This document shows positions 822 through 60,752 of a DNA stretch of 64,000 bases, one piece after another. The translations under genes and the position numbers were made by a program. Location of the stretch: the NCBI RefSeq assembly GCF_900143215.1, contig NZ_FRDM01000011.1, positions 62,001 to 126,000 on the forward strand, in the 5' to 3' direction. How positions within the stretch are numbered: the first letter of the stretch is position 1; each line of letters opens with the position of its first letter. The DNA is from Geodermatophilus obscurus (GTDB lineage: Bacteria; Actinomycetota; Actinomycetes; Mycobacteriales; Geodermatophilaceae). The notes under the pieces were generated by a model. That model saw nothing but the letters and a program-made list of their open reading frames with translations, was not told the DNA's origin and made no database searches.

Positions 822-861
822 GGGAGGACCCCGCGTCCCCCCCACTCCTCGTTCCAGCACG
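822..861. repeat. Palindromic intergenic element, copy 1 (partial)
   Basis: It starts right after the secG stop codon with GGAGGACCCCG and a C-rich run, then jumps to the tail motif GTTCCAGCAC that ends several full copies (39,298 and 40,893). The middle and the right arm appear to be missing, so this is a shortened copy. Confidence 0.55.
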
Positions 862-1029
862 TCAGCACACCGCGGCGGAGTCCTCCGGGGAGCCGGCACG
901 GGCTGACGGCGGTCCGGCGAACGCCGAGGCCACCGGGACCAAAGTCCTCCGCGCGGCAAGATCCTGGCCATAGACTGCCCGGGCGACCGCTGGGTCGCTG
1001 CACACCGCTGAGACGCACAGGGGGCACTC

Positions 1030-1371
1030 GTGGCTGGTGGTAATGCGATCCGGGGCACGCGGGTGGGCGCCGGGCCGATGGGGGAGGCCGAGCGCGGGGA
1101 GACCGCTCCCCGCCGGCGGGTGCCGTTCTGGTGCGCCCAGGGGCACGAGACGGAGGTGTCCTTCGCCTCGGACGCCGAGGTGCCCGAGCTGTGGGACTGC
1201 CCGCGCTGTGGGCTCCCCGCCGGCCAGGACCAGGCGGCCCCGCCACCCGCGCCGCGGACCGAGCCCTACAAGACCCACCTGGCCTACGTCCGCGAACGGC
1301 GCAGCGACGCCGACGGCGACGCCCTCCTCGAGGAGGCGCTGGCCAAGCTGCGGGCCCGCCGCGGCGCCTGA
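1030..1371 (+). CDS. rbpA: RNA polymerase-binding protein RbpA
   Basis: The 113-residue product matches RbpA, an actinobacteria-specific protein that binds the beta subunit and group I/II sigma factors and stabilises the open promoter complex. Visible features are the basic N-terminal tail with RGTRVG, the core zinc-binding pattern FWCAQGHE and CPRCGLPA, and the C-terminal sigma-interacting part beginning PYKTHLAYVRERRS with an acidic-basic helix to the end. The GTG start is preceded by AGGGGGC. The gene stands alone between secG and the oppositely oriented pentose phosphate block. Confidence 0.95.
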   Translation: MAGGNAIRGTRVGAGPMGEAERGETAPRRRVPFWCAQGHETEVSFASDAEVPELWDCPRCGLPAGQDQAAPPPAPRTEPYKTHLAYVRERRSDADGDALLEEALAKLRARRGA

Positions 1372-1397
1372 GAGGACCCGCTGCTCGCCTACCGTAG

Positions 1398-1455
1398 AAG
1401 GACCCCGTCCCCCTCACCCCTCGCAAGCTGGGGGTGAGCCTCGGGACGGGGCCAC
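1398..1455. repeat. Palindromic intergenic element, copy 2 (full)
   Basis: A complete copy between rbpA and the genes facing it. Left arm GACCCCGTCC (1401-1410), C-rich core with CACCCCTCGCAAGCT, right arm GGACGGGGCC (1444-1453). Nine of ten arm positions pair; the second pair is an A-C mismatch that recurs in other copies. Confidence 0.75.
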
Positions 1456-1475
1456 GTGGCGGGCCCGGGCCGAGC

Positions 1476-1634
1476 TCACTCGCGGGCGGTCCGCGGGTGC
1501 GGCACGGTTGCCCACGCCACCCAGGCCGCCCGCTCCCAGTTCCAGTAGCAGCCCGGGTGCCCGAGGGGTGTGGTGGGGACGTCGACCGGCGCCTGGCGGG
1601 GCGTGCGGCGGACGGCCGGGGCGGGAAGCGTCAT
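1476..1634 (-). CDS. Small tryptophan-rich hypothetical protein
   Basis: A 52-codon reading frame sits in the otherwise empty stretch between rbpA and pgl. The ATG at 1634 is preceded by GGAGACCGTG, a plausible ribosome binding site; in-frame GTG codons lie just upstream. The product starts with a basic, Pro-rich part and then has the unusual motif GHPGCYWNWERAAWVAW before a short basic tail. The cluster of aromatic residues around one cysteine is unlike a chance antisense reading of GC-rich DNA, but no family is recognised. It could be a small DNA- or RNA-binding or stress protein; this is not supported beyond composition. Confidence 0.4.
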   Translation of the reverse strand: MTLPAPAVRRTPRQAPVDVPTTPLGHPGCYWNWERAAWVAWATVPHPRTARE

Positions 1635-1734
1635 CACGGTCTCCACGGCGGTGGGACGGCGGCCGGGCGGCTACCGGTCGCGGTCCGCAGTGTGCGCCGC
1701 CGGCACCTCCCGCACCAGGGGCCGCAGCCCCCGG

Positions 1735-2550
1735 TCAGCCCTGACCGGCGAGTTCCGCGGCGGCCTCGGCGTCCAGCAGCCAGCGGGTCGCCCGGCGCCC
1801 GTGCACGCCGGCCGCGGGCAGCTCCTCGGGCGTCGTGCCACCGGTCAGCGCCCGCGCCACGGCCGGCGCCTTGGCCGCGCCGGAGACCAGCAGCCACACC
1901 TCCTCGGCCGCGTTGATCGCGGAGAAGCCGAGGCTGATCCGGGTCGGCGGCGGCTTGGGGCAGTTGCGCACCGCGAACACGGTGCGCTCGTCGGCGACCG
2001 CCGGCGTGCCGGGGAAGACCGACGCCACGTGCCCCTCCGGGCCCATGCCGAGCAGCAGCAGGTCGATGCGGGGGAGCGGCTGCCCCTCCGGCGCCGCGGC
2101 GGCCAGCTGGTCGGCGTACCAGGCGGCGGCGTCCTCGGGCTCGGCGAACCCGGCGTCCGAGGCCGGCATGGCGTGGACGCGCTCCGCCGGGACACCGGCC
2201 GGGTCCAGCAGCGCCTGCCGGGCGCCCAGCTCGTTGCGGTCGCCGTCGTCGGCGGGCACCCAGCGCTCGTCGCCCCACCAGACGTCGACCGCGGCCCAGT
2301 CCACCCGCTCGCGCACGGGTTCGCGGACCAGGTCGGCGACCCGCTCGAGGACGGCGGTGCCGATGCCCCCGCCGGTGAGGACGACCGACGCCGTTCCGTG
2401 CACGGCCTGGGCGGCGGCCAGCCGCGCGACCAGCGCCGCGCCGACGGCGCGGGCCAGCCGGTCGGCATCGGGCTCGACGACGACGTCCGGCGTGGGGTGA
2501 CCGCCCGCGGCCATCCGGGCGGCGGCGCGGTCCCCGGGAGGCAGCGTCAC
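1735..2550 (-). CDS. pgl: 6-phosphogluconolactonase
   Basis: The product hydrolyses 6-phosphogluconolactone, the second step of the oxidative pentose phosphate pathway. Seen: LTGGGIGTAVLE near residue 60, the DVWWGDERWVP motif with acidic active-site residues, the LLLLGMGPEGHVASVFPG motif of the Pgl/NagB fold, and the closing VSGAAKA segment. The GTG start at 2550 overlaps the opcA stop codon in a GTGA junction, implying translational coupling with opcA. The 271-residue length is usual for actinobacteria. It is the last gene of the minus-strand carbon block; the same opcA-pgl pairing occurs in mycobacteria. Confidence 0.92.
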   Translation of the reverse strand: MTLPPGDRAAARMAAGGHPTPDVVVEPDADRLARAVGAALVARLAAAQAVHGTASVVLTGGGIGTAVLERVADLVREPVRERVDWAAVDVWWGDERWVPADDGDRNELGARQALLDPAGVPAERVHAMPASDAGFAEPEDAAAWYADQLAAAAPEGQPLPRIDLLLLGMGPEGHVASVFPGTPAVADERTVFAVRNCPKPPPTRISLGFSAINAAEEVWLLVSGAAKAPAVARALTGGTTPEELPAAGVHGRRATRWLLDAEAAAELAGQG

Positions 2551-3668
2551 GGGACGGCCTGCCCGGCATCGCGGGCGCCCTGGTCGGCGTCGTCCACGCC
2601 CTGCTGGGCGACCTCGTCCGTGCCCTCCGAGTCCAGCGGGACGGCGGCCAGCGTCTCCCCGCCGCTGCCGGCGTTCTCCTCGGCGGGGTCGCGCCACACG
2701 TACTCGCGCACGGCGGACCGGTACGCCAGGTCCGGCACGCCGGTGGTGCTCTCCAGTGCCTCCGCGAAGGGCTCGTCGGGGTCGAGGCGGCGCAGCTCCT
2801 CGCCGATCAGGTCGCCGAGCTGCCGCTCGGGCAGGGCCACCGTCGCCTCCGGCCGGTAGGGCTGGCTGATCACCGCTCCGCCGCGACGGTCGGCCTCCAC
2901 CCGCACCTGCTCGTCCTGGTCCAGCTCCAGCACCACGGCGGAGACGCCGCTCGGCCCGGGGCGGCGTTCGCCGGACACCACCGGGATCTCGAGGCCGCAG
3001 CGCGCGCTCAGCCAGCCGGCCGTCAGCAGCGCCGTGGCGCTGCCCGGATCGCCCTCGACCCGTCCGCCCAGCACCCGGACGGCGTCGCCGCGGCGTCCGG
3101 ACACCGAGTCCACCGTCGAGGTGAGCGTGGACCGCCACGGCGTGCTGCGGGTCCAGGCCAGGTCGGTGTCGCCCGGCACGTAGTCCTCGGCGCGGGCGCG
3201 CAGCGCGGCCTGCTGGTCCTCGGCGAGCGAGCTGTCGGCGATCCGCCGGTCGGCGATCACCGCCAGCGCGTCGGTGGCCAGCTGCTCCGGCGGCGTGCCG
3301 TGCCACCAGGTCACCACGGGGGCGTCGGCGGCCAGCAGTGGCAGCACCACCGACTCGGCGTGCAGCGCCAGCCGGCCGTACATGCGCATGACCACGGCCT
3401 CACCGGGGCCCAGTCGCCCGCCGATCAGCACCTCGGCGTCCAGCCGCGGGGTCGGCGCCTCGATCTGCCGGCGGACGACGATCAGCAGCCGGCAGGGGTG
3501 CTGCTCGGCGGCGGCGGTCGCGGCCTCCTCGGCCTCGGCCACCCGGTTCTCGTCGGCCACGACCACCAGGGTCAGCGCCACGCCGGAGAGCACCGCACCG
3601 CCGGTGCGCCGCTGGGCGGCGAGCTCCTTGACCACGGCGGAGCCGGTGGTGTCCCACAGGGTCGTCAT
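2547..3668 (-). CDS. opcA: Glucose-6-phosphate dehydrogenase assembly protein OpcA
   Basis: OpcA is needed in actinobacteria and cyanobacteria for assembly and redox control of glucose-6-phosphate dehydrogenase. The 373-residue product begins TTLWDTTGSAVVKELAAQRR, typical of the family, and has the central TWWHGTPPEQLATDALAVIA region and a C-terminal domain with VEGDPGSATALLTAGWLS. It lies 40 bases downstream of zwf and overlaps pgl by four bases, as expected for proteins acting on one reaction. The ATG at 3668 has GGGAGGGAACCCG upstream as a good ribosome binding site. Confidence 0.93.
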   Translation of the reverse strand: MTTLWDTTGSAVVKELAAQRRTGGAVLSGVALTLVVVADENRVAEAEEAATAAAEQHPCRLLIVVRRQIEAPTPRLDAEVLIGGRLGPGEAVVMRMYGRLALHAESVVLPLLAADAPVVTWWHGTPPEQLATDALAVIADRRIADSSLAEDQQAALRARAEDYVPGDTDLAWTRSTPWRSTLTSTVDSVSGRRGDAVRVLGGRVEGDPGSATALLTAGWLSARCGLEIPVVSGERRPGPSGVSAVVLELDQDEQVRVEADRRGGAVISQPYRPEATVALPERQLGDLIGEELRRLDPDEPFAEALESTTGVPDLAYRSAVREYVWRDPAEENAGSGGETLAAVPLDSEGTDEVAQQGVDDADQGARDAGQAVP

Positions 3669-3708
3669 CGGGTTCCCTCCCGTCGGGCGGCTGCAGCGGG
3701 TCGGCGCC

Positions 3709-5226
3709 TCACGGGCGCCGCCACCGTCGGCCCTCGGCGGCCAGCATCTCGTCGGCCGCCCGTGGCCCCCACTCGCCGGCCCGGTAGGGCTGCGGCGTCG
3801 TCCCGGCCCAGAACTCCTCGAGCGGGTCGATCACCGCCCACGACGCCTCGACCTCCGCGTTGCGGGGGAAGAGCGTGGCGTCGCCGAGCAGGACGTCCAG
3901 CAGCAGCCGCTCGTAGGCCTCGGGGCTGGCCTCGGTGAACTGCTCGCCGTAGAGGAAGTCCATCGACACGTCGCGGACCTCCATCACGCTGCCGGGCACC
4001 TTCGACCCGAACTTCAGGGTGACCCCCTCGTCGGGCTGCACCCGCACGACCAGCTGGTTGTTGCCCAGCTCCTCCGTGTCGGTGTCGGCGAAGGGCAGGT
4101 GCGGAGCCTGCTTGAAGACCAGCGCGATCTCGGTGACCCGCCGTGGCAGCCGCTTGCCGGTGCGCAGGTAGAACGGCACGCCGGCCCAGCGGCGGGTCTC
4201 CACGCCGAGCCGGACGGCGGCGTAGGTCTCGGTGGTCGAGCGCGCGTCGACGCCCTCCTCCTGCCGGTAGCCGGTGGCCCGCTGGCCGGCCAGCCAGCCC
4301 TGCTCGTACTGGCCGCGCACGGCGAAGGTGCGGAGGTCCTCGGGCAGCGAGACGGCCCGCAGGACCTTGAGCTTCTCGGTGCGGATCTCCTCGGCGGAGA
4401 ACTCGACCGGCTCCTCCATCGCGGTGAGCGCCAGCAGCTGCAGCAGGTGGTTCTGCAGCACGTCGCGGGCGGCGCCGGTCTCCTCGTAGAACTGGGCCCG
4501 CCCGCCGATCCCGACGTCCTCGGCCATGGTGATCTGCACCGAGTCGACGTGGTGGCCGGTCCAGACCGGCTCGAACAGCTCGTTGGCGAACCGCAGCGCC
4601 ATCAGGTTCTGGACGGTCTCCTTGCCCAGGTAGTGGTCGATCCGGAAGACGTCCTCGGCGGTGAACACCGAGTCGACCAGCTCGTTGAGCTCCCGGCTGG
4701 AGGCCAGGTCGGTGCCGAACGGCTTCTCCACCACGACCCGGCGCCACCGTCCGGAGGTGCTGTCGGCCATGCCGGTGCGCTGCATCTGCTTGAGCACGAC
4801 CGGGAACATCGCCGGCGGGATGGACAGGTAGAAGGCGGCGTTGCCGCCGATCCCGTGGGTGCCCTCGAGCTCCCCGAGGGTGGCGGCCAGCTGGTCGAAG
4901 GCGTTGTCGTCGTCGAACGAGCCCTGCACGAAGCGCACGCTGCCGGCCAGCCGCTCCCAGACCTCCTCCCGCCACGGGGTGCGGGCGGCCTTGCGCGCGG
5001 CCTCGCGGGCCAGCTCGGCGAAGTCCTCGTCGCCCCAGTCGCGGCGGGCGAAGCCCAGCAGGGCGAAGTTGGTCGGCAGCAGACCGCGGTTGGCCAGGTC
5101 GTAGACCGCCGGCAGCAGCTTCTTGCGCGCGAGGTCCCCGGTGATGCCGAAGACGACCAGGGCGCAGGGCTCGGGTACGCGGGGCAACCGCCGGTCCCGC
5201 GGATCGCGCAGCGGGTTGGAGATCAT
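3709..5226 (-). CDS. zwf: Glucose-6-phosphate 1-dehydrogenase
   Basis: This NADP-dependent enzyme commits glucose-6-phosphate to the pentose phosphate pathway. The 505-residue product has the nucleotide-binding motif GITGDLARKKL (about residues 27-37) and the substrate-site signature RIDHYLGKE, with the usual C-terminal domain. The ATG at 5226 was chosen because GAGGACGG lies just before it and the family begins shortly before the dinucleotide fold; a start 17 codons further upstream would add only a basic tail. It is followed by opcA and pgl and preceded by pgi at 105 bases. Confidence 0.95.
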   Translation of the reverse strand: MISNPLRDPRDRRLPRVPEPCALVVFGITGDLARKKLLPAVYDLANRGLLPTNFALLGFARRDWGDEDFAELAREAARKAARTPWREEVWERLAGSVRFVQGSFDDDNAFDQLAATLGELEGTHGIGGNAAFYLSIPPAMFPVVLKQMQRTGMADSTSGRWRRVVVEKPFGTDLASSRELNELVDSVFTAEDVFRIDHYLGKETVQNLMALRFANELFEPVWTGHHVDSVQITMAEDVGIGGRAQFYEETGAARDVLQNHLLQLLALTAMEEPVEFSAEEIRTEKLKVLRAVSLPEDLRTFAVRGQYEQGWLAGQRATGYRQEEGVDARSTTETYAAVRLGVETRRWAGVPFYLRTGKRLPRRVTEIALVFKQAPHLPFADTDTEELGNNQLVVRVQPDEGVTLKFGSKVPGSVMEVRDVSMDFLYGEQFTEASPEAYERLLLDVLLGDATLFPRNAEVEASWAVIDPLEEFWAGTTPQPYRAGEWGPRAADEMLAAEGRRWRRP

Positions 5227-5331
5227 GGTCCGTCCTCGTGGTCGGGTGGGTGGCCGCCGTCCGGCGCGGCGGTGCACCGGGCGGCGGGTGGTGCGGGTGC
5301 GCTCGTGGACCCTGATCTTCCCCGAGGCTGC

Positions 5332-8107: not shown

Positions 8108-8165
8108 GCGGCCCTGTCGCAGGGACCCGGCCCGAGCTCGCGAGGGTCGGGGGGCGACAGGGTCC

Positions 8166-10771: not shown

Positions 10772-11692
10772 GTGACGACGCTCTCCGAACGCCCGGCCGT
10801 CCAGGGCCGGCGCCTGTCGGCCACGATCCGCGCCTACGTCGCGCTGACCAAGCCGCGGATCATCGAGCTGCTGCTCATCACGACCCTGCCGGCGATGATG
10901 CTCGCCGTCGGCGGGCTGCCCTCCTGGGAGCTGCTGCTGGCCACCATGGCCGGCGGCACCCTCGCCGCCGCCGCGGCCAACGTCTTCAACTGCTGGTACG
11001 ACCGCGACATCGATCGGCTCATGCACCGGACGGAGCGCCGTCCGCTGGTCACCGGCGAGATGACACCGCGCGCCGCACTGGTGTTCGGCCTGGTGCTCAC
11101 GGTCCTGTCGGTCGCGCTGCTGTACGTCACGACCACGCCGCTGGCCGCCGTCCTGGCCCTGGGCGCTATCGCCTACTACGCCGTGGTCTACACGATCGTG
11201 CTGAAGCGGCACACCCGGCACTCGACCCTGTTCGGCGGAGTGCCCGGGGCGGCGCCGGTGCTCATCGGCTGGGCCGCGGTCACCGGCACGCTGGCCTGGC
11301 CCGCGGTGGTCTTCTTCGGCGTCGTCTTCTGCTGGCAGCTGCCGCACTTCTGGGCGCTGGCCATGCGGTTCCGCGCCGACTACGCGCGCGCCGACGTCCC
11401 GATGCTCCCGGTGGTGGCCAGCCCGTTGTCGGTCGGTCGGCAGACCGTCGTCTGGACCTGGCTGACCGTCGCGGTCTCGCTGCTGCTGTGGCCGGTGGCC
11501 GACGGCTACGGCATCGGCTGGGTGTACACCGCCGCCGCGGCCGCGCTGGGGGGCTGGTTCGTCGTCGAGGCGCACCGGCTGCTGCGGCGCATCCGCTCCG
11601 GTGCGGAGACCAGGCCGATGAAGCTGTTCCACGTCTCGATCACCTACATGACCCTGCTCTCCATCGCGATCATCGTCGACGTCCTGGTCTGA
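10772..11692 (+). CDS. ctaB: Heme o synthase (protoheme IX farnesyltransferase)
   Basis: The enzyme adds a farnesyl group to protoheme, making heme o for terminal oxidases; ctaA nearby then makes heme A. The 306-residue product is a polytopic UbiA-family membrane protein with the conserved acidic motif NCWYDRDIDRLMHRT (about residue 72 on) and the second conserved loop KRHTRHSTLFGGVPGAAP. Nine hydrophobic segments can be traced. The GTG at 10,772 was chosen because the family begins shortly before ALTKPRIIELLLIT. Confidence 0.94.
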   Translation: MTTLSERPAVQGRRLSATIRAYVALTKPRIIELLLITTLPAMMLAVGGLPSWELLLATMAGGTLAAAAANVFNCWYDRDIDRLMHRTERRPLVTGEMTPRAALVFGLVLTVLSVALLYVTTTPLAAVLALGAIAYYAVVYTIVLKRHTRHSTLFGGVPGAAPVLIGWAAVTGTLAWPAVVFFGVVFCWQLPHFWALAMRFRADYARADVPMLPVVASPLSVGRQTVVWTWLTVAVSLLLWPVADGYGIGWVYTAAAAALGGWFVVEAHRLLRRIRSGAETRPMKLFHVSITYMTLLSIAIIVDVLV

Positions 11693-11694: not shown

Positions 11695-11740
11695 AAGGGC
11701 CCCGTCCTCCCCATCCTTCGCAGGCTCCGGGCGGGGCCGG
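11695..11740. repeat. Palindromic element, copy 4 (short)
   Basis: Starts three bases after the ctaB stop codon with AGGGCCCCGTCC, keeps the core CCCCATCCTTCGCAGGCTC and ends GGGCGGGGCC. The stem is shortened compared with full copies. Confidence 0.6.
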
Positions 11741-11741
11741 C

Positions 11742-11772
11742 GGTGACGTCGCGGTGACGTCGGGGTGACGGA
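11742..11772. promoter_or_regulatory. Three GTGAC direct repeats with 11-bp spacing
   Basis: GGTGACGTC, GGTGACGTC and GGTGACGGA begin at 11,742, 11,753 and 11,764. Direct half-sites one helical turn apart are typical of OmpR/PhoB-family response regulators. They stand immediately upstream of a -10-like TAGCCT (11,780-11,785), so a bound regulator would touch the -35 region of the downstream gene. Confidence 0.45.
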
Positions 11773-12840: not shown

Positions 12841-13770
12841 TCAGCGCGCAGCGGAGGCCGGGACCTGCGGGGACTCCAGCGGCAGCTCGGACGCCGGCCC
12901 GCGGACGGACCACACCAGCCGGGCCGTGTACGCCGTCACCAGCACCGCGCCGAGCATGTGCAGCAGCACGAGCGCGATCGGCAGGTCGGTGAAGTACTGC
13001 ACGTAGCCGACGACACCCTGCGCCAGCTGGACGACCAGCAGGTCGCGCGCCGCCCGCCTCACGCGGCCGGGGGCGTCCGTGGCGTGCAGCGCCACGAGCA
13101 GCGCGACGGTCAGCCCGACCAGCAGGAACACCGCGTCGGCGTGCAGCTGGCTGACCAGCTCGACGTCGAAGCCCATCCGGTCGCCGGTCGGGACGTCGTC
13201 CTCGTCGACGTCCCCGCTGTGCGGCCCGCTGCCGGTCACCAGCGTGCCGAGCACCAGGACGACGGCCGTGACGGCGGCGACCCCGGTCACCAGCAGGCCC
13301 AGCGGACGGCGCAGCAGCGGCTGGCCCACCCCGGGCTCGCGGGAGCGCAGCCACAGCACGGTGGCCAGCGCGATCAGCACGATCGACACGAGGAAGTGCG
13401 CCGCGACCGTCCACGGGTTCAGGCCGGTGAGCACGGTGACCCCGCCGAGCAGCGCCTGCGCGGGGACGCCGAGGAAGGTCAGGACCGCCAGCAGGCGCAG
13501 GTCGCGGCGCGCGGACCGCCACACCGCGACGACGGTGGCGATGGCGACCGCGGCGAGCACGAAGGTGAGCAGCCGGTTGCCGAACTCGATGACGCCGTGG
13601 CCGGCCAGTTCGGGCGTGGCGACGAAGCTCTCGCTCGTGCACCGCGGCCAGGTCGGGCAGCCCAGGCCCGAGCCGGTGAGCCGGACGGCGCCGCCGGTGA
13701 CGACGATCGCGCCGTTGGCGACGGCGTTGGCCAGGGCGAGCCGCGAGACGACGGCGGAGGAGACCGGCAC
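12841..13770 (-). CDS. ctaA: Heme A synthase (COX15/CtaA)
   Basis: This membrane enzyme oxidises heme o to heme A for aa3-type cytochrome oxidase. The 309-residue product has eight hydrophobic segments in two related halves and the four expected heme-ligand histidines, in AGHGVIEFGNRL, AAHFLVSI, SQLHADAVF and LLHMLGAVL. The N-terminal RLTGSGLGCPTWPRC motif is also typical. The start is GTG at 13,770, with TAGCAT six bases upstream, suggesting a leaderless mRNA. It diverges from sufR. Confidence 0.93.
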   Translation of the reverse strand: MPVSSAVVSRLALANAVANGAIVVTGGAVRLTGSGLGCPTWPRCTSESFVATPELAGHGVIEFGNRLLTFVLAAVAIATVVAVWRSARRDLRLLAVLTFLGVPAQALLGGVTVLTGLNPWTVAAHFLVSIVLIALATVLWLRSREPGVGQPLLRRPLGLLVTGVAAVTAVVLVLGTLVTGSGPHSGDVDEDDVPTGDRMGFDVELVSQLHADAVFLLVGLTVALLVALHATDAPGRVRRAARDLLVVQLAQGVVGYVQYFTDLPIALVLLHMLGAVLVTAYTARLVWSVRGPASELPLESPQVPASAAR

Positions 13771-13961: not shown

Positions 13962-14933
13962 GTGGAAAGCAGCACGGTGCAGGTGGGCGGCGGGGCGAGC
14001 ACCCCGGCCCGGCCCTCGCCGTCCGCCGACGACGGGCCCACGCGGCACCGCGTCACCGCCCTGCTGCTGGAGCACGGCCCGCAGACCGCGACCGAGCTCG
14101 CCGAGCAGCTGGGCGTCTCGCCGACCGCCGTCCGCCGGCACCTCGACGCGCTGGTCTCCACCGGCCGCGTCGAGGAGCGGCACGCTCCCGGCACCCCGCG
14201 GGGGCGCGGCCGCCCGGCCCGGCTGTTCCACCTGACCGACGCCGGCCGCTCGGACTTCCCGCACGCCTACGACGACCTCGCGCTGACCGCGCTGCGGTTC
14301 GTCGCGGCGCAGGGCGGGCCGGACGCGGTCCGCGCCGTCGCCGAGGCGCAGCTCGCCGGGCTGGAGCAGCGCTGCTCGGCCGCGGTGGAGGCAGCACCGG
14401 GCGCCCCGGTCGACCGGGCCCAGGCCCTCGCCGGCGCGCTCACGGCCGAGGGCTACGCTGCCTCGGCCTCGGCGATCTCCGGCGGCGGGCAGCTCTGCCA
14501 GCACCACTGCCCGGTCGCGCACGTGGCAGCGGAGTTCCCGCAGCTGTGCGAGGCCGAGACGGCGGTGATCGGCCGGCTCGTCGGCACGCACGTGCAGCGG
14601 CTGGCCACGATCGCCCACGGCGACGGGGTGTGCACCACGCACATCCCGGGGCCGGTCCGCCGCAGGTACGACGAAGACCGGCCCCGTCCGGAGGCTCACC
14701 CCGAGCCCCGGTGGCCCCGTCCGGAGGCTCGTCCCGAGCCTGCGAGGGATGGGAGGGACGGGGTCCTTCCCGAGGAGGACGGGGTCCTTCCTCACACGCG
14801 CGCGGGGAACAGATCGGGCCCCGCGAGCCCTGTACCGGACGAGCGCGCGGCGCACCGGCTCCGAGCCGGTGGACGCCCCGCCCCGTCCACCAGCAGCACC
14901 CCCACGAACGACCGGGAGAGGACGCCCGCATGA
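13962..14933 (+). CDS. sufR: SufR Fe-S-sensing repressor of the suf operon
   Basis: An ArsR/DeoR-type winged-helix repressor that senses an Fe-S cluster. The helix-turn-helix is at about residues 45-75 ([20 protein letters not shown]) and wing [12 protein letters not shown] follows. Cluster ligands are offered by CQHHCPVAH, the cysteine in PQLCEAE and [10 protein letters not shown]. The start is GTG with no ribosome binding site, directly behind a palindrome. Conserved sequence stops near residue 236; the remaining 88 residues are a translation of a palindromic repeat plus flanking DNA, rich in Pro, Arg and Glu. The stop overlaps sufB in an ATGA junction. Whether the long tail is tolerated or processed is unknown. 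Confidence 0.9.
14674..14793. repeat. Palindromic element, copy 6, expanded, inside sufR 3' end
   Basis: A minus-oriented copy whose arms are duplicated: GGCCCCGTCCGGAGGCTC occurs twice on the left and GGACGGGGTCCTTCC twice on the right, around a core TCGTCCCGAGCCTGCGAGG. It lies inside the open reading frame of sufR and is read as the protein tail. Confidence 0.65.
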
Positions 14934-21095: not shown

Positions 21096-21203
21096 GAGGA
21101 CCCCTCCGCCCCCCACCCCTCGCACGCTCGGGGCGGGCCCCTGTAGAGGGGCCGCGTCTGCCCCCACCGTTCGCAGGCTCGCGGCGGGTCCCTGCAGGGG
21201 CCG
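21096..21203. repeat. Palindromic elements, copies 5a and 5b, after sufT
   Basis: Two adjoining copies lie between the convergent sufT and membrane-protein genes. The first has arms GACCCCTCC and GAGGGGCC around CACCCCTCGCACGCTCGGGG; the second has core CACCGTTCGCAGGCTCGCGG and ends TGCAGGGGCC. They could act as a two-way terminator. Confidence 0.65.
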
Positions 21204-30967: not shown

Positions 30968-31056
30968 CCTGCGCTTCGTCGTCCCGGTACAGCGGCTGTA
31001 ACAAGCACACGAAACGGCCCTCCTCCGTAGTCCCGCCGCGAGCCTGGTGAGGTGCG

Positions 31057-31143
31057 GGAAGGGCCACCCTGCAGGGGCCCGCGGGCTCCCTGCAGGGCCC
31101 CGCCACGCCCCTGCGAGCGGTGGGGGGCAGGGGGTTTCCTTCT
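31057..31143. repeat. Palindromic element, copy 7
   Basis: A minus-oriented copy in the gap between the SgcJ-like gene and sugE. The left arm ACCCCCTGCC and right arm GCAGGGTGGCC can pair; a second CCCTGCAGGG palindrome is inserted near the right arm. Confidence 0.6.
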
Positions 31144-31488: not shown

Positions 31489-31502
31489 GACGGCCTCCAC
31501 AG

Positions 31503-31544
31503 GCGCCGTCTTGTCGCTGTCCGGGTACGGCACCGCTCGTCCGG
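31503..31544 (-). promoter_or_regulatory. Guanidine-III riboswitch (ykkC-III) upstream of sugE
   Basis: On the minus strand the segment begins CCGGACGAG, continues with GCCGTACCCGG and ACAAGACGGCGC, closely following the known guanidine-III aptamer (its two short stems form a pseudoknot that binds guanidinium). It ends two bases before the GTGGAGG ribosome binding site of sugE (plus positions 31,494-31,500), so ligand binding can expose or hide translation start. Conserved CCGGACGAG and ACAAGACGGCGC are both intact. It fits the exporter gene behind it. Confidence 0.9.
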
Positions 31545-31592
31545 GGGCCGGGAGGCGGCCCGACCCCATGGTCCCAGCAGTCGTGCGGGATG

Positions 31593-32360
31593 TCAGGGGG
31601 ACCAGGAGGAGACCGCGGCGTCGTAGCGGTCGAGCAGGACGGCGGCGATGCGGTCGTCGGGCAGCAGCGGAGCGGTGACCGTGTCCGCGCCGGCCCCGCC
31701 GAGCTTGTCGTGGAAGTGGCCCGGTGCCAGCAGGTAGGCGGCGAGCACGACCTGCCGGGCGCCGGCGGCCCGGGCCGCGGCGACCGCGTCGGGCACCGGC
31801 GGTCGCGCGGCCGAGCCGTAGCCGGTGCTCACCGGGCCGGTCCAGCGCTCCTGCAGCGCGGCCGCCGTCTCGTCGACGTCGGCAACCGAACGGGGGTCGC
31901 TGGAGCCCGCGGCGGCGAGCACCACGGCCGTGGCCGGGTCGTCGGGGTCGGCGCCGGCGGCGAGCAGCCGGTCGTGCAGGACGGCGACCAGCCGGGGGTC
32001 GGGGCCCAGCGGACGGGCGGCGCGGGCCGCGTCGTGCTCGCGCACGGCCCGGGCGATGTCCACGTGCACGTGGTAGCCGCCGGAGAGCAGCAGCGGGACG
32101 ACCACCGAGGGACGCCCGGCGTCGGCCAGGCCCGCGACGACGTCGGCCACCGTGGGCGGCTGCACGTCGACGAACGCGGCGGTGGTGACCAGGCCGGGGC
32201 GCAGATCGCGGGCGGCGAGGGCCAGTTCGGCGACCAGCCGCCGACCGGTGGGGTTGCGGGTGCCGTGCGCGCAGGCGACCAGGATGGGGCTCCCTCGCAG
32301 GGCCCCGCCCCGAGCGTGCGAGGGGTGGGGGGCGAGGGGGTCCTTCTTCACGGCGTCCAT
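31593..32360 (-). CDS. Sirohydrochlorin chelatase-like protein (CbiX family)
   Basis: The 255-residue product has two CbiX-like halves: ILVACAHGTRNPTG with the metal-site histidine and LLSGGYHVHVDIARAV, then VLAAAGSSDPRS and LLAPGHFHDKLG. Such proteins insert metal into sirohydrochlorin for siroheme or cobalamin. The ATG at 32,360 with GGAGG upstream is the only good start. Residues about 4-24 are a translation of a palindromic repeat element, so the gene has absorbed a repeat directly after its start codon. Whether the enzyme is active with this leader is unknown. Confidence 0.85.
   Translation of the reverse strand: MDAVKKDPLAPHPSHARGGALRGSPILVACAHGTRNPTGRRLVAELALAARDLRPGLVTTAAFVDVQPPTVADVVAGLADAGRPSVVVPLLLSGGYHVHVDIARAVREHDAARAARPLGPDPRLVAVLHDRLLAAGADPDDPATAVVLAAAGSSDPRSVADVDETAAALQERWTGPVSTGYGSAARPPVPDAVAAARAAGARQVVLAAYLLAPGHFHDKLGGAGADTVTAPLLPDDRIAAVLLDRYDAAVSSWSP
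32286..32346. repeat. Palindromic element, copy 8, inside the CbiX reading frame
   Basis: Minus-oriented full copy with left arm GACCCCCTCGC, core CACCCCTCGCACGCTCGGGG and right arm GCGAGGGAGCC. It lies in frame behind the start codon of the chelatase gene and is read as DPLAPHPSHARGGALRGS. Confidence 0.8.
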
Positions 32361-37020: not shown

Positions 37021-37181
37021 GCAGGGCGGACCTGTACGCCCGCTACCGCCAGCTGGTGGACGACGAGCTGCCGCGACGGGCGCGGGAGGGCCGCTGGGTC
37101 GAGGACCTCCCTGCCCCCCACCGCTCGCAAGCTCGCGTCGGGACCCTGCAGGGAGGCCAGCCAGGCCGGCGGACACCGTGA
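37017..37181 (+). pseudogene. Truncated small gene ending in a palindromic element
   Basis: The frame starts with GTG overlapping the sirtuin stop codon (GTGA). The first 28 residues, [20 protein letters not shown] and onwards to GRWVED, look like the amphipathic, well-formed N-terminus of a real actinobacterial protein. From 37,102 on, the DNA is a palindromic element and the frame is read through it to a stop at 37,181, which overlaps the next start codon. The rest of the original gene is missing, so this is most likely a gene broken by repeat insertion and deletion; expression of the 54-residue remnant is possible. Confidence 0.55.
37102..37158. repeat. Palindromic element, copy 9
   Basis: Left arm GACCTCCCTGC (37,104-37,114), core CACCGCTCGCAAGCTCG, right arm GCAGGGAGGCC (37,148-37,158). 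Ten of eleven arm positions pair, with the recurring A-C mismatch at position two. Confidence 0.8.
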
Positions 37182-39232: not shown

Positions 39233-39298
39233 AGGACCACCCTTGCGCCACGCTCCGCAGGCCCGGACCAGGCCCTTGAGGGGTGGCCGTTCCAGCAC
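39233..39298. repeat. Palindromic element, copy 10
   Basis: Two bases after the ligase stop codon. Left arm GACCACCCTTG, right arm TTGAGGGGTGGCC, tail CCGTTCCAGCAC. The arms pair apart from the recurring A-C mismatch and one G-T pair. Confidence 0.75.
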
Positions 39299-40823: not shown

Positions 40824-40893
40824 GAGGACCACCCTTCCCCCCACGCCTCGCGAGCTCAGGCGGCGGGACCCTGGAGGGTGCCCGTTCCAGCAC
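40824..40893. repeat. Palindromic element, copy 11
   Basis: Three bases after the NlpC/P60 stop codon. Left arm GACCACCCTTCC, core CCCACGCCTCGCGAGCTCAGG, right arm GGAGGGTGCCC, tail CCGTTCCAGCACG. Confidence 0.75.
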
Positions 40894-54944: not shown

Positions 54945-55017
54945 GTCGATCACGGGGTTGTGGCAGGGGACACGCGCGGACGCGCCGCCCGCCCCGCGCC
55001 ACAACCCCGTGATCGAC
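54945..55017. terminator. 20-bp inverted repeat between SPFH gene and sigF
   Basis: GTCGATCACGGGGTTGTGGC (54,945-54,964) recurs as its exact complement at 54,998-55,017, with a 33-base GC-rich loop. It lies between convergent genes and may end transcription from both. Its arms look like a separate dispersed repeat, since the sequence is unrelated to the palindromic family described elsewhere. Confidence 0.7.
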
Positions 55018-55036
55018 GTCCGCGGGCGGCCGCGAG

Positions 55037-55080
55037 GCCTCGATCAGGCCTCGATCAGGCCTCGATCAGTCCTCGATCAG
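55037..55080. repeat. 11-bp tandem repeat at the 3' end of sigF
   Basis: Four units of (G/T)CCTCGATCAG run into the sigF stop codon (55,077-55,079). A degenerate fifth unit, TCCTTGAGCAG, lies inside the coding end (55,081-55,091), suggesting the array grew from the gene end by slippage. Confidence 0.85.
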
Positions 55081-56171: not shown

Positions 56172-56665
56172 CGCACGACCGAGACGTTCTGGCCCGAGTC
56201 CCCGAGCAGCTTGTCCGGGTGCTGGCCCGGGAGGTACTTGTCCATGGAGATGACGGCGACCGGCGAGCTCCCGCCGTCGCCGGCCGGCACGGTGGCCTGG
56301 GTGCCGCGGCCGGCCTCGACCTTGTCCACCAGCGTGTGCAGCACCGCCCAGCCGAAGCCGTCGCGGGGGACGTCGGTGCCCTCGGCCGTGGGCACCCAGG
56401 CGTCGATGTGCAGGCCCTGGCGCGTGGTCTCGAAGACCACGGTCAGCCGGCGGTCGTCGGAGACGATCGCGGAGAGCGTCGCGCAGGCCTCGTCCACGGC
56501 CAGCCGGAGGTCCTCCACCGCGTCGAGGTCGTAGTCCATCCGCATCGCCAGGTCACCGGCCATGGCGCGCACGGCGGGCAGCTGCGTGGGGGTGGTGGGC
56601 ACCCGCAGTTCCAGTCGTTCGGCGCGCCGCCCGTCCTGCGCGAGGGCACCCCTCAAGTCCACCAT
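56168..56665 (-). CDS. rsbW: Anti-sigma factor RsbW-like serine kinase/ATPase
   Basis: The 165-residue product is a HATPase_c anti-sigma factor that holds SigF inactive until a STAS antagonist displaces it. Seen: the N-box region DLRLAVDEACATLSAIV, where the Asn of the usual ExxxN is a Thr (position 63), as in some actinobacterial relatives, and the GFGWAVLHTLVDKVE lid region. It is coupled to sigF by a four-base overlap. Antagonist candidates are the STAS protein at 59,967-60,365 and the STAS domain of the fusion protein next door. Confidence 0.9.
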   Translation of the reverse strand: MVDLRGALAQDGRRAERLELRVPTTPTQLPAVRAMAGDLAMRMDYDLDAVEDLRLAVDEACATLSAIVSDDRRLTVVFETTRQGLHIDAWVPTAEGTDVPRDGFGWAVLHTLVDKVEAGRGTQATVPAGDGGSSPVAVISMDKYLPGQHPDKLLGDSGQNVSVVR

Positions 56666-56808
56666 CCGTCGTCCGCTCCTCTTCCTCGCATGGCGACCGC
56701 GTGCCCGGCGTCATGGGACCCGGGTTCCGCGCGGTTCGCACCCATCCTGCCCGACCGGCCGCGACGTCGTGCCCGGCCCGGTCGAGCGGTGCGCCTGAAG
56801 AGGAGGTC

Positions 56809-56835
56809 TACCCCGTCTCCCGCGCAGGTCAAACC
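56809..56835 (-). promoter_or_regulatory. SigF-type promoter of the rsbW-sigF operon
   Basis: On the minus strand GGTTT (plus 56,831-56,835) is separated by 17 bases from GGGTA (plus 56,809-56,813), the consensus for actinobacterial SigF/SigB. The start site would lie near 56,802, leaving a leader of about 137 bases before rsbW. It implies positive autoregulation. Confidence 0.75.
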
Positions 56836-56898
56836 CCAGGTCATACGCGCAGGAGGCGCGGTTGCAGCCCTCTGGGGGCTGCGGTTCGCTGGCCCGAG

Positions 56899-58755
56899 AT
56901 GAACGCCAGCCAGGAGGGCCCGGGCTCCGGGGCCGCACCCGTGGACGACGCCGGCGGGGCCGCGCTCGTCGCGGCGTTGGAGGCCGCCTCCGCCGCGATC
57001 TGGTGCCTGGCCGGGACCGCCCTGGAGCCGGTCTGGGCCAACGCCCGTGCCCGTGCCCTCGGCGCGAACCCGCACGACCTGGCCACGGTCGCCGGCCGCC
57101 GCATCACCGAGCTGGCCGGATCGGTCGCGCGCAGCGGCCGCGCCGAGACGGTGCGCGGCGAACCCGACGCCGCGGGCCGGGCCGCGAACGTCGTGCTGCA
57201 GCCGCTGGAGGTGCGAGGGCAGCCGGGCGTCCTCGTCGTCGTCGAGGCCGACCGGACCGACAGCGGGCACGCCGTGGCGGCCGTCGCGGAGGAGGACGTC
57301 GTCGACCAGGTGCAGCACTCGCTGCTGCCCCCGGCCCTGCCGCTGCTGCCGGACGTGCGGCTGTCCGGCGGCTACCACCGCGCCAGCTCGGTGCACGCCG
57401 CGGGCGGCGACTGGTACGACGCGGTGCCGCTCGGCCGCGGCCGGCTGGCCCTGGTGGTCGGTGACGCCGTGGGTTCCGGCGTGCCCGCCGCCGGGGCGAT
57501 GAGCCGGCTGCGCGGGGCGATGCGCTCGCTGGCCCTGCGCGACCCGTCACCGGCGGCGGTGGTCGCCGCACTGGACGCCTTCGCCGGTCAGATGGAGGAC
57601 GTCGAGGGCGCCTCGGTGTTCTACGGGGTGCTCGAGGCCGCCACCGGACGGCTGACCTACGCCGCGGCCGGGCACCCCGCCCCGCTGCTCGTCCAGGCCG
57701 ACGGCGGTGCCGAGTTCCTCCCGCTGGCGCCCCGCCCGCCGCTGGGCAGCCTGCCCGGGGTGCCGACCGCCGCGGCCACGGCGCAGCTGCCGCAGGGCGC
57801 CACCCTCGTGCTCTTCTCCGACGGCGCCGTCGCCACCGCCGCCTCGCTGTCGGCGGCGGGCCTCGACCGGCTGGCCCGGGTGTCCCGGGCCGCGCTCACC
57901 GCTCCGGGGGCCCTCGCCGGCGACGCGCCGGGTGAGCTGGCTGCAGCCATCGTCGAGGGCCTGACGGACGCCGCGGAGTGCCCCGACGACATCGCCGTGC
58001 TGGTCGCCCACCGCCGCGCCGAGGCGACCGAGCCCCTGGTGCTCGACCTGCCGGCCGTCCCGGCGGCGCTGCCGACGGTCCGCCGGAACCTGGGTGCCTG
58101 GTTGGCCGGGCTGGGTATGGGCGAGCAGGACCGGGTCGGCGTCATGGTCGCGGTGGGGGAGGCAGCCGCCAACGCGGCGGAGCACGCGTACCGCGGTGTC
58201 CAGCCGGGGCGGATGCAGGTGACCGCGGCGGTCGACGTCGACGGGCAGCTCACCGTCACCGTGCGCGACCAGGGCCGGTGGCGCCCGCCGGACCGCGACC
58301 CCGGTGACCGCGGCCGCGGTCTGCTGATCATGCGGCAGCTGGTCGACGGGGTGGTGCTGCAGGACGAGCACGGCACGACGGTCACCCTGAGCATGCGGCT
58401 GCGCCGCGGCCCCGAGGACGACGGAGACCGTCCCGGCGGCAGCAGCGCGGCCGACGTCGTCGTCGACCGGAGCGGTGAGCGCCCGGTGGTGCGGGCGACC
58501 GGCGCGGTGGACGTGCTCGGCGCCGAGCAGATGCGCATCCGGCTGCTGGAGGCGAGCCACGGCGGCACCAGCCGGGTCGAGCTGGACCTGGCCGCGGTCA
58601 CCCTGTTCAGCAGCGCCGCGGTGCGCGTCGTCCTCGCGGTGGCACGGATCGCCGGCGAGGAGGGGTGGCGGCTGGTGGTGCACGCCGCCGAGGGCGGGGT
58701 CACCCGGCACGTCCTCGAGATCAGCGGGCTGGGCGGGCTGGTCGACCTGCGCTGA
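56899..58755 (+). CDS. Multidomain partner-switching regulator: PAS-like, PP2C/SpoIIE phosphatase, HATPase_c, STAS
   Basis: The 618-residue product joins an N-terminal PAS-like domain (about 25-118), a PP2C/SpoIIE phosphatase (about 140-372; metal-site Asp in GGDWYD, GDAVGSG, FSDGA and CPDDIAV), an RsbW-like HATPase_c (about 382-502; GEAAANAAEHAY, RDQGRW, GRGLLIM) and a STAS domain (about 520-618; phospho-acceptor Ser in LFSSAAVRVV). All steps of sigma partner switching are thus in one chain. It diverges from rsbW-sigF, so it probably controls that pair. Start ATG at 56,899 with a weak ribosome binding site. Confidence 0.9.
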   Translation: MNASQEGPGSGAAPVDDAGGAALVAALEAASAAIWCLAGTALEPVWANARARALGANPHDLATVAGRRITELAGSVARSGRAETVRGEPDAAGRAANVVLQPLEVRGQPGVLVVVEADRTDSGHAVAAVAEEDVVDQVQHSLLPPALPLLPDVRLSGGYHRASSVHAAGGDWYDAVPLGRGRLALVVGDAVGSGVPAAGAMSRLRGAMRSLALRDPSPAAVVAALDAFAGQMEDVEGASVFYGVLEAATGRLTYAAAGHPAPLLVQADGGAEFLPLAPRPPLGSLPGVPTAAATAQLPQGATLVLFSDGAVATAASLSAAGLDRLARVSRAALTAPGALAGDAPGELAAAIVEGLTDAAECPDDIAVLVAHRRAEATEPLVLDLPAVPAALPTVRRNLGAWLAGLGMGEQDRVGVMVAVGEAAANAAEHAYRGVQPGRMQVTAAVDVDGQLTVTVRDQGRWRPPDRDPGDRGRGLLIMRQLVDGVVLQDEHGTTVTLSMRLRRGPEDDGDRPGGSSAADVVVDRSGERPVVRATGAVDVLGAEQMRIRLLEASHGGTSRVELDLAAVTLFSSAAVRVVLAVARIAGEEGWRLVVHAAEGGVTRHVLEISGLGGLVDLR

Positions 58756-58801
58756 CGGGCGAACCGCCGTCGTCCCGCGTTTGCGGAACGCCGGCGGTGC
58801 C

Positions 58802-58807
58802 CATCCT
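58802..58807 (+). promoter_or_regulatory. Putative -10 box of leaderless topoisomerase IB promoter
   Basis: CATCCT ends six bases before the GTG start at 58,814, without a ribosome binding site. Confidence 0.35.
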
Positions 58808-58813
58808 GTGGGC

Positions 58814-59830
58814 GTGAGACTCCGCCGCAGTGACGTGCACGGCCCCGGATGGCGGCGCCGGCGTTCCGGCCGCGGCTTCGCGTACTACGACTCCGACGGC
58901 GCTCTCATCAAGGACGAGCGCCTCGACCGGCTCCGCTCCCTGGCCATCCCGCCGGCCTGGCAGGACGTCTGGATCTGCCCCTGGCCCAACGGCCACATCC
59001 AGGCCACCGGTGTGGACGCCGCGGGCCGCCGGCAGTACCGCTACCACGACCAGTGGCGGGCGCGGCGGGACGCCGAGAAGCACGAGCGGGTGCTGGAGAT
59101 CGCCCACCAGCTGCCCGACGTGCGCGACGCCGTCGTCGAGGCGATCCGGGGCCGGGGGCTGACCCGGGACCGGGTGCTGGCCGCCGCGGTCCGGCTGCTG
59201 GACCTGGGCGCCTTCCGCGTCGGCAGCGAGCAGTACGCCGAGGACAACGGCACCTACGGGCTGGCCACGCTGCGCCGGGAGCACGTGCGGGTGCGCGGCG
59301 AGCGGGTGTTCTTCTCCTACACCGCCAAGGGTGGCCTCGAGCGGGAGCTGGAGCTCACCGACAAGCCGACCGCGGACGTCGTCCGGGAGCTGCTCAAGCG
59401 GCCCGAGGAGGGCGAGGAGCTGCTCGGCTACTGGGTGGAGGACCCGGACGGCAACCAGGTGTGGCACGACGTCACCAGCACGGAGGTGAACGCCTACCTC
59501 AAGGAGGTCAGCGACGCGGAGATCACGGCGAAGGACTTCCGCACCTGGAACGCGACCGTGCTGATGGCCGCGACGCTGGCCGCCACGCCGGAGCCGGGGA
59601 CGAAGACGGCCCGCAAGCGGGTGCTCAAGGAGGCCTACGAGCGGGTGTCGGAGACGCTGGGCAACACGCCGGCGGTCTGCAAGGCCAGCTACGTCGACCC
59701 GCGGGTGGTCGACCGGTTCGAGAACGGGGACACCGTGGCGCACGCCCTGCACGAGGCGGCGGAGGCGCCGGACGACCGGACGGCCCAGCAGGTGCTCGAG
59801 CAGGCGGTCTGCCAGCTGCTCAGCGCCTGA
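58814..59830 (+). CDS. DNA topoisomerase IB (poxvirus-like)
   Basis: The 338-residue product is a bacterial type IB topoisomerase: it relaxes supercoils through a 3'-phosphotyrosyl bond. Seen: GRGFAYYDSDGALIKDE, RLDRLRSLAIPPAWQDVWICP, the catalytic Arg/Lys region RVGSEQYAEDNGTYGLATLR and SYTAKGG, and the tyrosine in CKASYVDPRVV near the C-terminus. The GTG start is preceded only by a -10-like box. A strong terminator follows. Together with Ku and LigD downstream it forms a DNA-maintenance neighbourhood, though not an operon. Confidence 0.93.
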   Translation: MRLRRSDVHGPGWRRRRSGRGFAYYDSDGALIKDERLDRLRSLAIPPAWQDVWICPWPNGHIQATGVDAAGRRQYRYHDQWRARRDAEKHERVLEIAHQLPDVRDAVVEAIRGRGLTRDRVLAAAVRLLDLGAFRVGSEQYAEDNGTYGLATLRREHVRVRGERVFFSYTAKGGLERELELTDKPTADVVRELLKRPEEGEELLGYWVEDPDGNQVWHDVTSTEVNAYLKEVSDAEITAKDFRTWNATVLMAATLAATPEPGTKTARKRVLKEAYERVSETLGNTPAVCKASYVDPRVVDRFENGDTVAHALHEAAEAPDDRTAQQVLEQAVCQLLSA

Positions 59831-59866
59831 CGACGAGAGGCCCCGCCGGAGCGGGGCCTCTCGTCG
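59831..59866 (+). terminator. Terminator after topoisomerase IB
   Basis: A 16-base perfect stem CGACGAGAGGCCCCGC/GCGGGGCCTCTCGTCG with loop CGGA starts directly after the stop codon. Confidence 0.9.
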
Positions 59867-59880
59867 GGTGTGTCCCCTGA

Positions 59881-59945
59881 AGGTGGGGAGGACCCCGTCC
59901 TCCCCACCCCTCGCACGCTCGGGGCGGCGCCCTGAACTGGGGCCG
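59881..59945. repeat. Palindromic element, copy 12
   Basis: Left arm GACCCCGTCC (59,891-59,900), core CACCCCTCGCACGCTCGGGG, ending CTGAACTGGGGCC; the right arm is partly decayed. It lies between the topoisomerase terminator and the end of the facing STAS gene. Confidence 0.7.
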
Positions 59946-59966
59946 GGTGGGGCAGGGGGTCCTGCG

Positions 59967-60365
59967 TCAGCGGGCGCTGCCGTCGACGATGGTGAACAGG
60001 TCGATCAGGCCGGTGACCTCGAGCGGGCGGGTGACCGCGCGCGTGGTGGCGATGAGGCGGAGGTCGACGTCGCGGGAGCGGGCCGACTTCTGCGTCTCCA
60101 CGAGGACCGCCAGGCCGGCGGAGCCCAGGAACTGGACGCCCGACAGGTCGATGACCAGGGCCTTGGGCTGCTGCTCGAGCTGCGTGTCCAGCGACGACCG
60201 GAGCACCGGGGCGGTGAACGTGTCCACTTCGCCGACGACCGTCACCGTGACCGCGCCGTCCTCGCCGGTGGAGGTCGAGAGCGTGATCACGTCGTCGAAG
60301 GGTGCCTCCGTGCCCTCGGTCGACACGTCGGGCTGCCCCTCGGCAGGCAGGTCGGATGTGGTCAC
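59967..60365 (-). CDS. Anti-sigma factor antagonist (STAS domain)
   Basis: The 132-residue product is a stand-alone STAS protein: VTVVGEVDTFTAPVLRSSLD, then VIDLSGVQFLGSAGLAVLVE, with the phosphorylatable serine in LGSAGL. When unphosphorylated such proteins bind RsbW and free the sigma factor. A 25-residue unstructured leader precedes the domain. GTG start at 60,365 with GAGAGGAG upstream. It is the likely partner of RsbW 3.6 kb away; the fused phosphatase could dephosphorylate it. Confidence 0.9.
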   Translation of the reverse strand: MTTSDLPAEGQPDVSTEGTEAPFDDVITLSTSTGEDGAVTVTVVGEVDTFTAPVLRSSLDTQLEQQPKALVIDLSGVQFLGSAGLAVLVETQKSARSRDVDLRLIATTRAVTRPLEVTGLIDLFTIVDGSAR

Positions 60366-60530
60366 GGGCTGAGCTCCTCTCAACGGCAGTAGCCGGCGGC
60401 ACGACCGCCCGGTCAATCTACCGCTGCGCGGCCTCCCGGATGTCATGGCCCCCGGACACGCACGTCTCGTTCGTGTCCGTGCCGGGCGGTTCCCCGGCAC
60501 GACCGCGGCTGCCTGCTCAACCGCAACCCC

Positions 60531-60560
60531 AACGTAGACATCCGAGGTCGAACGTGCCAA
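60531..60560 (-). promoter_or_regulatory. Possible sigma-70-type promoter for the STAS gene
   Basis: On the minus strand TTGGCA (plus 60,555-60,560) and TACGTT (plus 60,531-60,536) are 18 bases apart. The leader would be about 160 bases and include a hairpin with GTGCCGGG/CCCGGCAC arms (plus 60,479-60,500). The remainder of the 388-base gap up to 60,680 shows no gene. Confidence 0.35.
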
Positions 60561-60680
60561 CCCGCCCTCGACGAGCGCCACCCACTCGTGACGCCGCGCC
60601 CCCGGAAGGAGGACGTACGGCGTCACGAGTCGTGCGGGTGGCCCTCTCGACCGGGACACGGCCCGCGCCGGGCCCGGTGA

Positions 60681-60752
60681 CGTCCTGGAACGGCCGCCCT
60701 CCAGGGGCCCTCCGCCTGCGCCTGCGAGGCGTGGGGGGAAGGGCGGTCCTCC
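60681..60752. repeat. Palindromic element, copy 13
   Basis: Minus-oriented, starting right after the DUF5709 stop codon: left arm GACCGCCCTTCC, core CCCACGCCTCGCAGGCGCAGG, right arm GGAGGGCGGCC, then CGTTCCAGGACG. All arm positions pair except the recurring A-C mismatch and one G-T pair. Confidence 0.8.

Follow-up and report, generated by a model that had tools for sequence, protein, structure and literature searches.

The 64,000-nucleotide stretch of the Geodermatophilus obscurus genome analysed here, hereafter the window (contig NZ_FRDM01000011.1 of assembly GCF_900143215.1, positions 62,001 to 126,000), carries a dispersed family of short palindromic repeats that probably spread as mobile DNA. 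Our favoured reading, to which we give a probability of roughly 0.6, is that the repeat is a non-autonomous mobile palindrome of the Geodermatophilaceae, similar to repetitive extragenic palindromic (REP) elements, with a mobiliser that we did not recognise and a preference for stop codons and for the tips of its own older copies. Mobility of the palindrome is indicated by empty orthologous sites, by copies within copies and by one site that is retained throughout the genus. A sequence-only reading of the window had left undecided whether such repeats exist because a folded form is selected or because a palindrome replicates. Empty sites, nests and tandem copies favour the palindrome, and a comparison of wobble pairs by strand gave no support to a role in messenger RNA (mRNA).

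Each unit consists of a short purine-rich head, with the consensus GAAG, followed by an imperfect hairpin of 53-55 nt that has about 18 base pairs and a 10-nt loop. On the written strand, the head is followed by an outer arm (GACC and a further 6-7 nt), a short pyrimidine run, the core stem and the loop TCGCANGCTC; 3' of the loop come the second half of the core stem, usually CGGG or CGAG, a 3'-side bulge and an outer arm ending in GGCC. The fixed parts are the purine head, the GACC...GGCC ends, the loop and two A-C mismatches. GAAG precedes 108 of the 197 copies that start with GACC and RAG precedes 185 of them, compared with 0.6% and 3.7% before any GACC. The commonest forms of the loop account for 48, 33, 24 and 15 of 167 distinct copies. 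Of these 167, 142 have A-C at outer pair 2, in agreement with the recurring mismatch that had been noticed at arm position two, and 115 have a second recurring A-C, which had gone unmentioned, at the pair directly outside the core stem. A conserved 20-mer core had also been proposed; this holds for the 10-nt loop, but the flanking CCCC/GGGG stem covaries (CCGC/GCGG, CGCC/GGCG). The commonest arm-length classes are 16/19 and 17/20 (left/right; 154 and 40 of 365 script matches, false positives included), and both arms lengthen together from the first class to the second. In some copies a GTTCCAGCACGTCACC tail is present together with a right-half copy. To call the tail frequent, as the sequence-only reading did, was too strong: GTTCC stands at +1 in just 19 of the 181 copies that end in GGCC. 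The GTTCCAGCACGTCACC module joins a full copy to right-half copies and is sometimes repeated; it was seen in the window near 846, 31063, 39287, 40882 and 60693, and also in L197, L200 and L202.

A covariance model built from 10 copies matched the window 12 times at E<0.01, and with the additional partial copies near 822, 21160 and 31020 these matches confirm the dispersed palindromic repeat described earlier. A weaker match at 62125 (E 0.025) contained no recognisable element when the sequence was read. Across the 5.24-Mb genome (112 contigs), the model gave at least 151 matches, a lower bound because scoring was limited to 150 out of 23,453 first-look candidates, and the core with up to two mismatches occurred 131 times compared with once for the reversed pattern. 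Within the window, the core with up to three mismatches occurred five times, compared with a mean of 0.16 in shuffles. The pattern CCTCGCANGCTCGG was present in all 25 Geodermatophilus genomes and in none of 16 genomes from other families of the order. Chance or GC composition as the origin of the repeats is ruled out by the shuffles, the reversed pattern and these other-family controls.

A looser form of the core was found in 108 of 112 Geodermatophilaceae genomes, with a maximum of 253 matches in one. Every one of the 26 Geodermatophilus genomes had 12-253 matches; several other genera ranged from a few up to about 190, genus g24 had 0-12, and genera g21-g23 had 0-2, the same level as the reversed control. 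The covariance model that the sequence-only reading had proposed showed copies genome-wide, the core patterns showed them family-wide, and none of the outcomes which it had listed as counting against it (no copies beyond the window, or neither covariation nor positional preference) was seen. A 39-mer of the element was matched by 76 stretches from named records, of which 75 are titled Geodermatophilus, Blastococcus, Modestobacter or Geodermatophilaceae. The remaining record (L108, SPQJ01000025.1) is titled 'UNVERIFIED_ORG: Bacillus sp. AZ43', and its Bacillus label is probably wrong. Carriage by phage or plasmid is not supported: one 24-mer of the element matched 0 viral contigs, and a plasmid search with one 141-nt query gave no match.

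The evidence for movement comes from comparing orthologous sites. Within 60 nt of the transketolase stop codon, 16 of 21 genomes have a copy (13 in sense orientation, 3 inverted) and 5 have none; in L202 and L203 the copy in the gap between the transketolase and transaldolase genes (tkt-tal) points the opposite way to that in 13 other genomes. The arm GACCCTGTCGC, or else its partner, is retained in both halves of the midpoint-rooted transketolase tree (in our genome and L200; in L206, L215 and, as a right arm, L205), so one insertion at this site is probably old, and it appears to have been invaded since. L200 and L205 have a newer copy within the remains of the old insertion, and L198 has a newer copy after GGACCCT. 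At the 14.7-kb site, one relative has the single (outer) copy, the window has a copy within a copy and four relatives have none, and the gene end orthologous to the 822 site has copies in 10 of 20 genomes. At other empty sites about 10-25 nt differ at the target, with flanks about 89-97% identical in the pairs inspected; because these flanks have diverged, the comparison does not give exact junctions. We found no clear target duplication, either in these comparisons with their inexact junctions or in 170 copies, whose flanking repeats of 4-7 nt did not exceed the range of the shuffles (for 8-nt repeats the count was 2, compared with a shuffled maximum of 1).

Nested copies are frequent. By reading we identified ten clear sites, and in nine of them the inner copy runs the same way as the outer; a nest of three levels is clear in C48, and L140 is a probable further one, with one outer right half visible. 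Some nested inner copies are inverted, and further nests were seen beyond these sites. Inner copies sit in the loop region of the older copies, and all 14 neighbouring pairs within 200 nt share the same orientation. On a Blastococcus mobilis contig (L147:2402-2756) there is a tandem array of six model matches at a spacing of about 60 nt. The copies in the window are as follows.

822..863, plus strand: partial copy with the head GGGAG, whose left arm GACCCCGCGTCC runs into a GTTCCAGCACGTC tail module; it begins straight after the TGA of open reading frame (ORF) 588-821.
1401..1453, plus strand: full copy of the 16/19 class; it apparently sits inside a degenerate outer copy, which begins past the TGA at 1369-1371.
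8110..8164, minus strand: full copy of the 17/20 class, 1 nt past the transketolase TAA and ahead of transaldolase.
11698..11747, plus strand: degraded copy, 5 nt past the TGA of ORF 10772-11692.
14713..14765, minus strand: inner copy inside an older copy whose outer arms lie at about 14680-14791.
21099..21153, plus strand: full copy of the 17/20 class, 5 nt past a TGA and followed by a right-half copy (the partial copy near 21160).
31084..31136, minus strand: copy in a convergent gene gap, followed by right-half and tail-like modules at about 31016-31080.
32288..32342, minus strand: copy inside an ORF and read in frame, near the N-terminus of the CbiX-domain ORF 31593-32360.
37104..37158, plus strand: full copy of the 17/20 class, a covariance-model match.
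39235..39288, plus strand: degraded copy, 3 nt past a TAG, with a GTTCCAGCAC tail.
40827..40882, plus strand: copy 5 nt past a TGA, with a GTTCCAGCACGTCGCC tail and a right-half copy.
59891..59944, plus strand: copy in a convergent gene gap, a covariance-model match.
60692..60748, minus strand: copy 5 nt past a TGA, with a GTTCCAGGACGTCACC tail.

The four outer-arm pairs quoted earlier as differing but still paired (at 1401, 8110, 37,104 and 60,692) are all present in the sequence. The in-frame copy in the CbiX-domain ORF (MDAVKKDPLAPHPSHARGG...) may be a repeat-encoded extension or may reflect a wrong start.

We then placed 221 copies over 1.44 Mb relative to genes, using gene calls made for this analysis. 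They lay in tandem gaps (122), convergent gaps (66), divergent gaps (11), inside genes (15) and at edges (7); intergenic bases are 52% tandem, 18% convergent and 30% divergent. A stop-side neighbour is present for 188 of the 199 intergenic copies, and 111 begin 0-8 nt past a stop codon, compared with 5.4% of 20,000 random intergenic placements. The mode of this distance is sharp at 5 nt, and 97 of the 111 stop-adjacent copies are in gene orientation. In the G. obscurus genome itself, 17 of 36 copies with a stop-side neighbour lie 0-8 nt past the stop, all 17 in gene orientation. The enrichment at 3' ends is therefore real, as is the preference in orientation, and the earlier claim of a start 0-8 bases past a stop for most copies applies to 111 of the 199 pooled intergenic copies and to those 17 of 36 in this genome. 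Some copies that do not adjoin a stop are inner copies within an outer copy that does. Co-direction with replication, counted by eye with the origin assumed at base 1, was seen at 61 of 100 listed sites in G024 and at 8 of 29 in G023 (G017 and G013 not included), and a replication-strand bias is thus not consistent between the two.

The stop codon itself varies with distance: TGA precedes 51 of 52 copies at 5 nt, TAA 4 of 6 at 1 nt and TAG 5 of 10 at 3 nt, with overall stop usage of 0.881 for TGA, 0.101 for TAG and 0.017 for TAA. In five of the seven ortholog sets listed, proteins whose genes carry a copy end much like those whose genes lack one; in the remaining two (2547-3668 and 12841-13770) the C-termini are highly variable. 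At the transketolase end TGA is the stop at all five empty sites, whereas TAA or TAG stands at 9 of the 16 filled ones, which suggests that the purine head may replace and restore the stop codon.

The same placement is what would be expected of an RNA element of the 3' untranslated region (3'-UTR), a transcribed hairpin that ends transcription or protects the mRNA and whose arms are kept paired, next to the stop, by selection. Beyond the frequency of stop-adjacent copies in sense orientation, the scarcity of divergent sites (11/199), the copy past transketolase in 16 of 21 genomes and a mean hairpin energy of -27.8 kcal/mol even on the written strand are all in its favour. Orthologous genes, however, are often without the element. 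There is no U-tract 3' of the hairpin (the T fraction is 0.06-0.22 at +1 to +6 after GGCC), and an intrinsic terminator was rejected on this count. A search of the window with Rfam 15 at the gathering score gave no match on the copies, its only match being a guanidine-III riboswitch (RF01763) at 31500-31565 on the minus strand with 64.5 bits, and at E<=1 four loci gave just two chance-level matches, both off the copies.

Two-sided changes were seen in 16 of 18 pairs (90 distinct sequences from 139 rows, named genomes); five covariation measures beat all shuffles (0/500), and sliding the partners abolished nearly all of the signal. Over 15 pairs, with the two fixed A-C pairs excluded, the Watson-Crick fraction in the 167 distinct copies was 0.892, compared with 0.701 when shuffled (largest shuffle 0.718), and in the 36 copies of our own genome it was 0.867 compared with 0.682; 271 of the 2,505 cells are not Watson-Crick. 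The covarying arms seen in the window are thus strongly supported against shuffled and slid controls, which do not remove relatedness and are not phylogeny-aware. A fold does matter, though its role is probably at the level of DNA or during movement.

What reads as an A-C mismatch on one strand pairs as G-U or G-T on its complement. The two fixed mismatches read A-C on the usually transcribed strand, and folding is better on the complementary strand for 165 of 174 copies under RNA parameters and for 159 of 174 under DNA parameters; the usual sense strand therefore folds worse, contrary to what a 3'-UTR element would lead us to expect. At the non-fixed pairs, sense copies in tandem gaps have 41 A-C and 29 G-T pairs, and the counts are 10 and 6 for antisense copies, 28 and 17 in convergent gaps, 8 and 3 in divergent gaps, and 12 and 1 for copies within genes or at edges, all of them small numbers uncorrected for phylogeny. 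Selection on the transcribed hairpin should make the decaying pairs of sense copies favour G-U over A-C. Since sense copies have no such excess and look much the same as antisense copies, selection on an mRNA hairpin is unsupported, and we regard a 3'-UTR RNA as an unlikely source of the pattern. It is possible that inserted hairpins affect mRNA in places, such as tkt-tal, although the pattern does not require this.

Paired arms could also arise with no selection on folding, if the palindrome corrected itself by template switching or by gene conversion between arms or copies. Wide variation of the arms at one orthologous site beside a constant flank is consistent with this: L206 and L210 have the same GTTCCAGCACCTCACC flank, yet different paired arms. 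Self-correction should nevertheless remove the two A-C mismatches, which are kept in 142 and 115 of the 167 copies, and other mismatches persist too (the 271 cells above). We consider it quite improbable.

The favoured reading, a REP-like mobile palindrome, would account for these features as follows. The unit would be recognised as a folded single strand during the mobility step, and the recognised strand would probably be the complement of the written one, on which the fixed A-C mismatches are G-T (G-U) pairs. If copying were limited to active copies that fold, only these would propagate, so that the arms would drift in pairs while the head, the ends, the loop and the two mismatches stayed fixed. 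Older copies would afterwards decay neutrally. The mobilising enzyme would be no recognisable Y1 transposase.

Searches for a mobiliser gave no candidate that fits. The Pfam domain Y1_Tnp (PF01797) was absent from our own genome and, at E<=0.001, from all 112 family genomes, and the same search was positive in 5 of 14 controls, including Escherichia coli; a REP-associated tyrosine transposase (RAYT) or IS200 transposase was rejected on this basis. Y2_Tnp was found in 1 of 112 family genomes, a member of another genus with a completeness of 81, and an IS91-type Y2 mobiliser was likewise set aside, by a search in which no control genome was positive. RVT_1 was found in 49 of 112 family genomes and was not found in the copy-rich G014, G015, G016 and G080; it therefore does not track copy number, which argues against a reverse transcriptase as mobiliser. 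In the 1.44 Mb scanned, rather than the whole genome, we recognised no autonomous element in the form of an ORF between matching half-elements, and none of five distant half-element pairs was recognised as one. By eye, with no profile search made on them, none of 31 genes flanked by copies on both sides was transposase-like. Among 324 genes near copies, the largest blastp clusters shown were transaldolase and transketolase orthologs, owing to the orthologous regions collected. On these two inspections, no mobiliser gene regularly flanked by copies was recognised.

Published REPs are sorted mostly by an unpaired GTAG or CGTC tag and are 20-40 bp long, according to PMC3733652; PMC2817692 and PMC3733652 explain GTAG-type REPs by RAYT transposases, and the latter describes CGTC-tagged REPs without a dedicated transposase. 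Our element could be a GTAG-type REP whose RAYT has disappeared or has diverged beyond the reach of the Pfam model, an explanation that overlaps with the favoured reading and differs from it on the mobiliser. The GAAG head is one letter from GTAG, and an unpaired 5' head with a hairpin, a high copy number and a position 3' of genes fit the account in PMC3733652. With GTAG REPs as presented in PMC2817692 and PMC3733652 the element has in common that it is a short palindrome of high copy number whose one end bears an unpaired tag, that palindromes differ among families, that it lies 3' of genes and that the tag can supply the stop. In contrast, its head is RAG/GAAG, with GTAG within 10 nt 5' in just 17 of 197 copies, and its 53-55-nt unit has a long stem of about 18 pairs, a fixed 10-nt loop and self-nesting in that loop. 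The 112 family genomes yielded no Y1 domain despite the positive controls, and the uniform orientation of the 14 close pairs is unlike the close inverted pairs of REPs, bacterial interspersed mosaic elements (BIMEs) and REP doublets forming hairpins (REPINs), although some nested inner copies are inverted. Membership of the GTAG type is accordingly improbable. CGTC REPs, as described in PMC3733652, resemble our element in being REP-like with no dedicated transposase, but CGTC lies within 10 nt of the 5' end in just 3 of 197 copies. They differ from it in sequence and lineage too.

Miniature inverted-repeat transposable elements (MITEs) are short, non-autonomous, multi-copy and hairpin-forming. 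The Geodermatophilaceae element is like them in all these respects, but the 170 copies examined show no clear target-site duplication and no parent transposon was found in the 1.44 Mb. Rickettsia palindromic elements can lie in frame within an ORF. The in-frame copy at 32288 recalls these elements, but called genes contain only 15 of the 221 copies, and sequence and lineage differ. They are named in PMC3733652. As the element behaves like a REP but differs in tag, transposase and pairing, we class it as REP-like only, a member of neither the GTAG nor the CGTC class. The literature searched, including passages of PMC3733652, PMC2817692, PMC12306157 and PMC9686282, contained no description of this palindrome family.

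More tentatively, and doubtful as it is, undescribed machinery that is neither Y1 nor Y2 might act on the folded single strand. It might insert the unit with a fixed polarity at stop codons, where the head would restore a stop by turning TGA into TAA or TAG. Insertion into the tips of older hairpins would likewise give Russian-doll palindromes. Several points weigh against a mobile palindrome. Neither a transposase nor an autonomous copy was found (1.44 Mb; Y1_Tnp 0/112, Y2_Tnp 1/112), movement is deduced from comparing genomes rather than observed, and the flanks of empty sites diverge so that junctions are inexact. Filling of the transketolase site in 16 of 21 genomes could also be explained by host selection, and the reading offers no reason for the targeting of stop codons.

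These results show that one need not infer a functional RNA from covarying stems in dispersed repeats, and that the strand on which the wobbles pair helps to discriminate. The filled, empty, inverted and nested states at one orthologous site make the mechanism testable. A self-nesting, family-wide palindrome in a family where no Y1 domain was found in 112 genomes points either to an enzyme of another kind or to spread by another cause.

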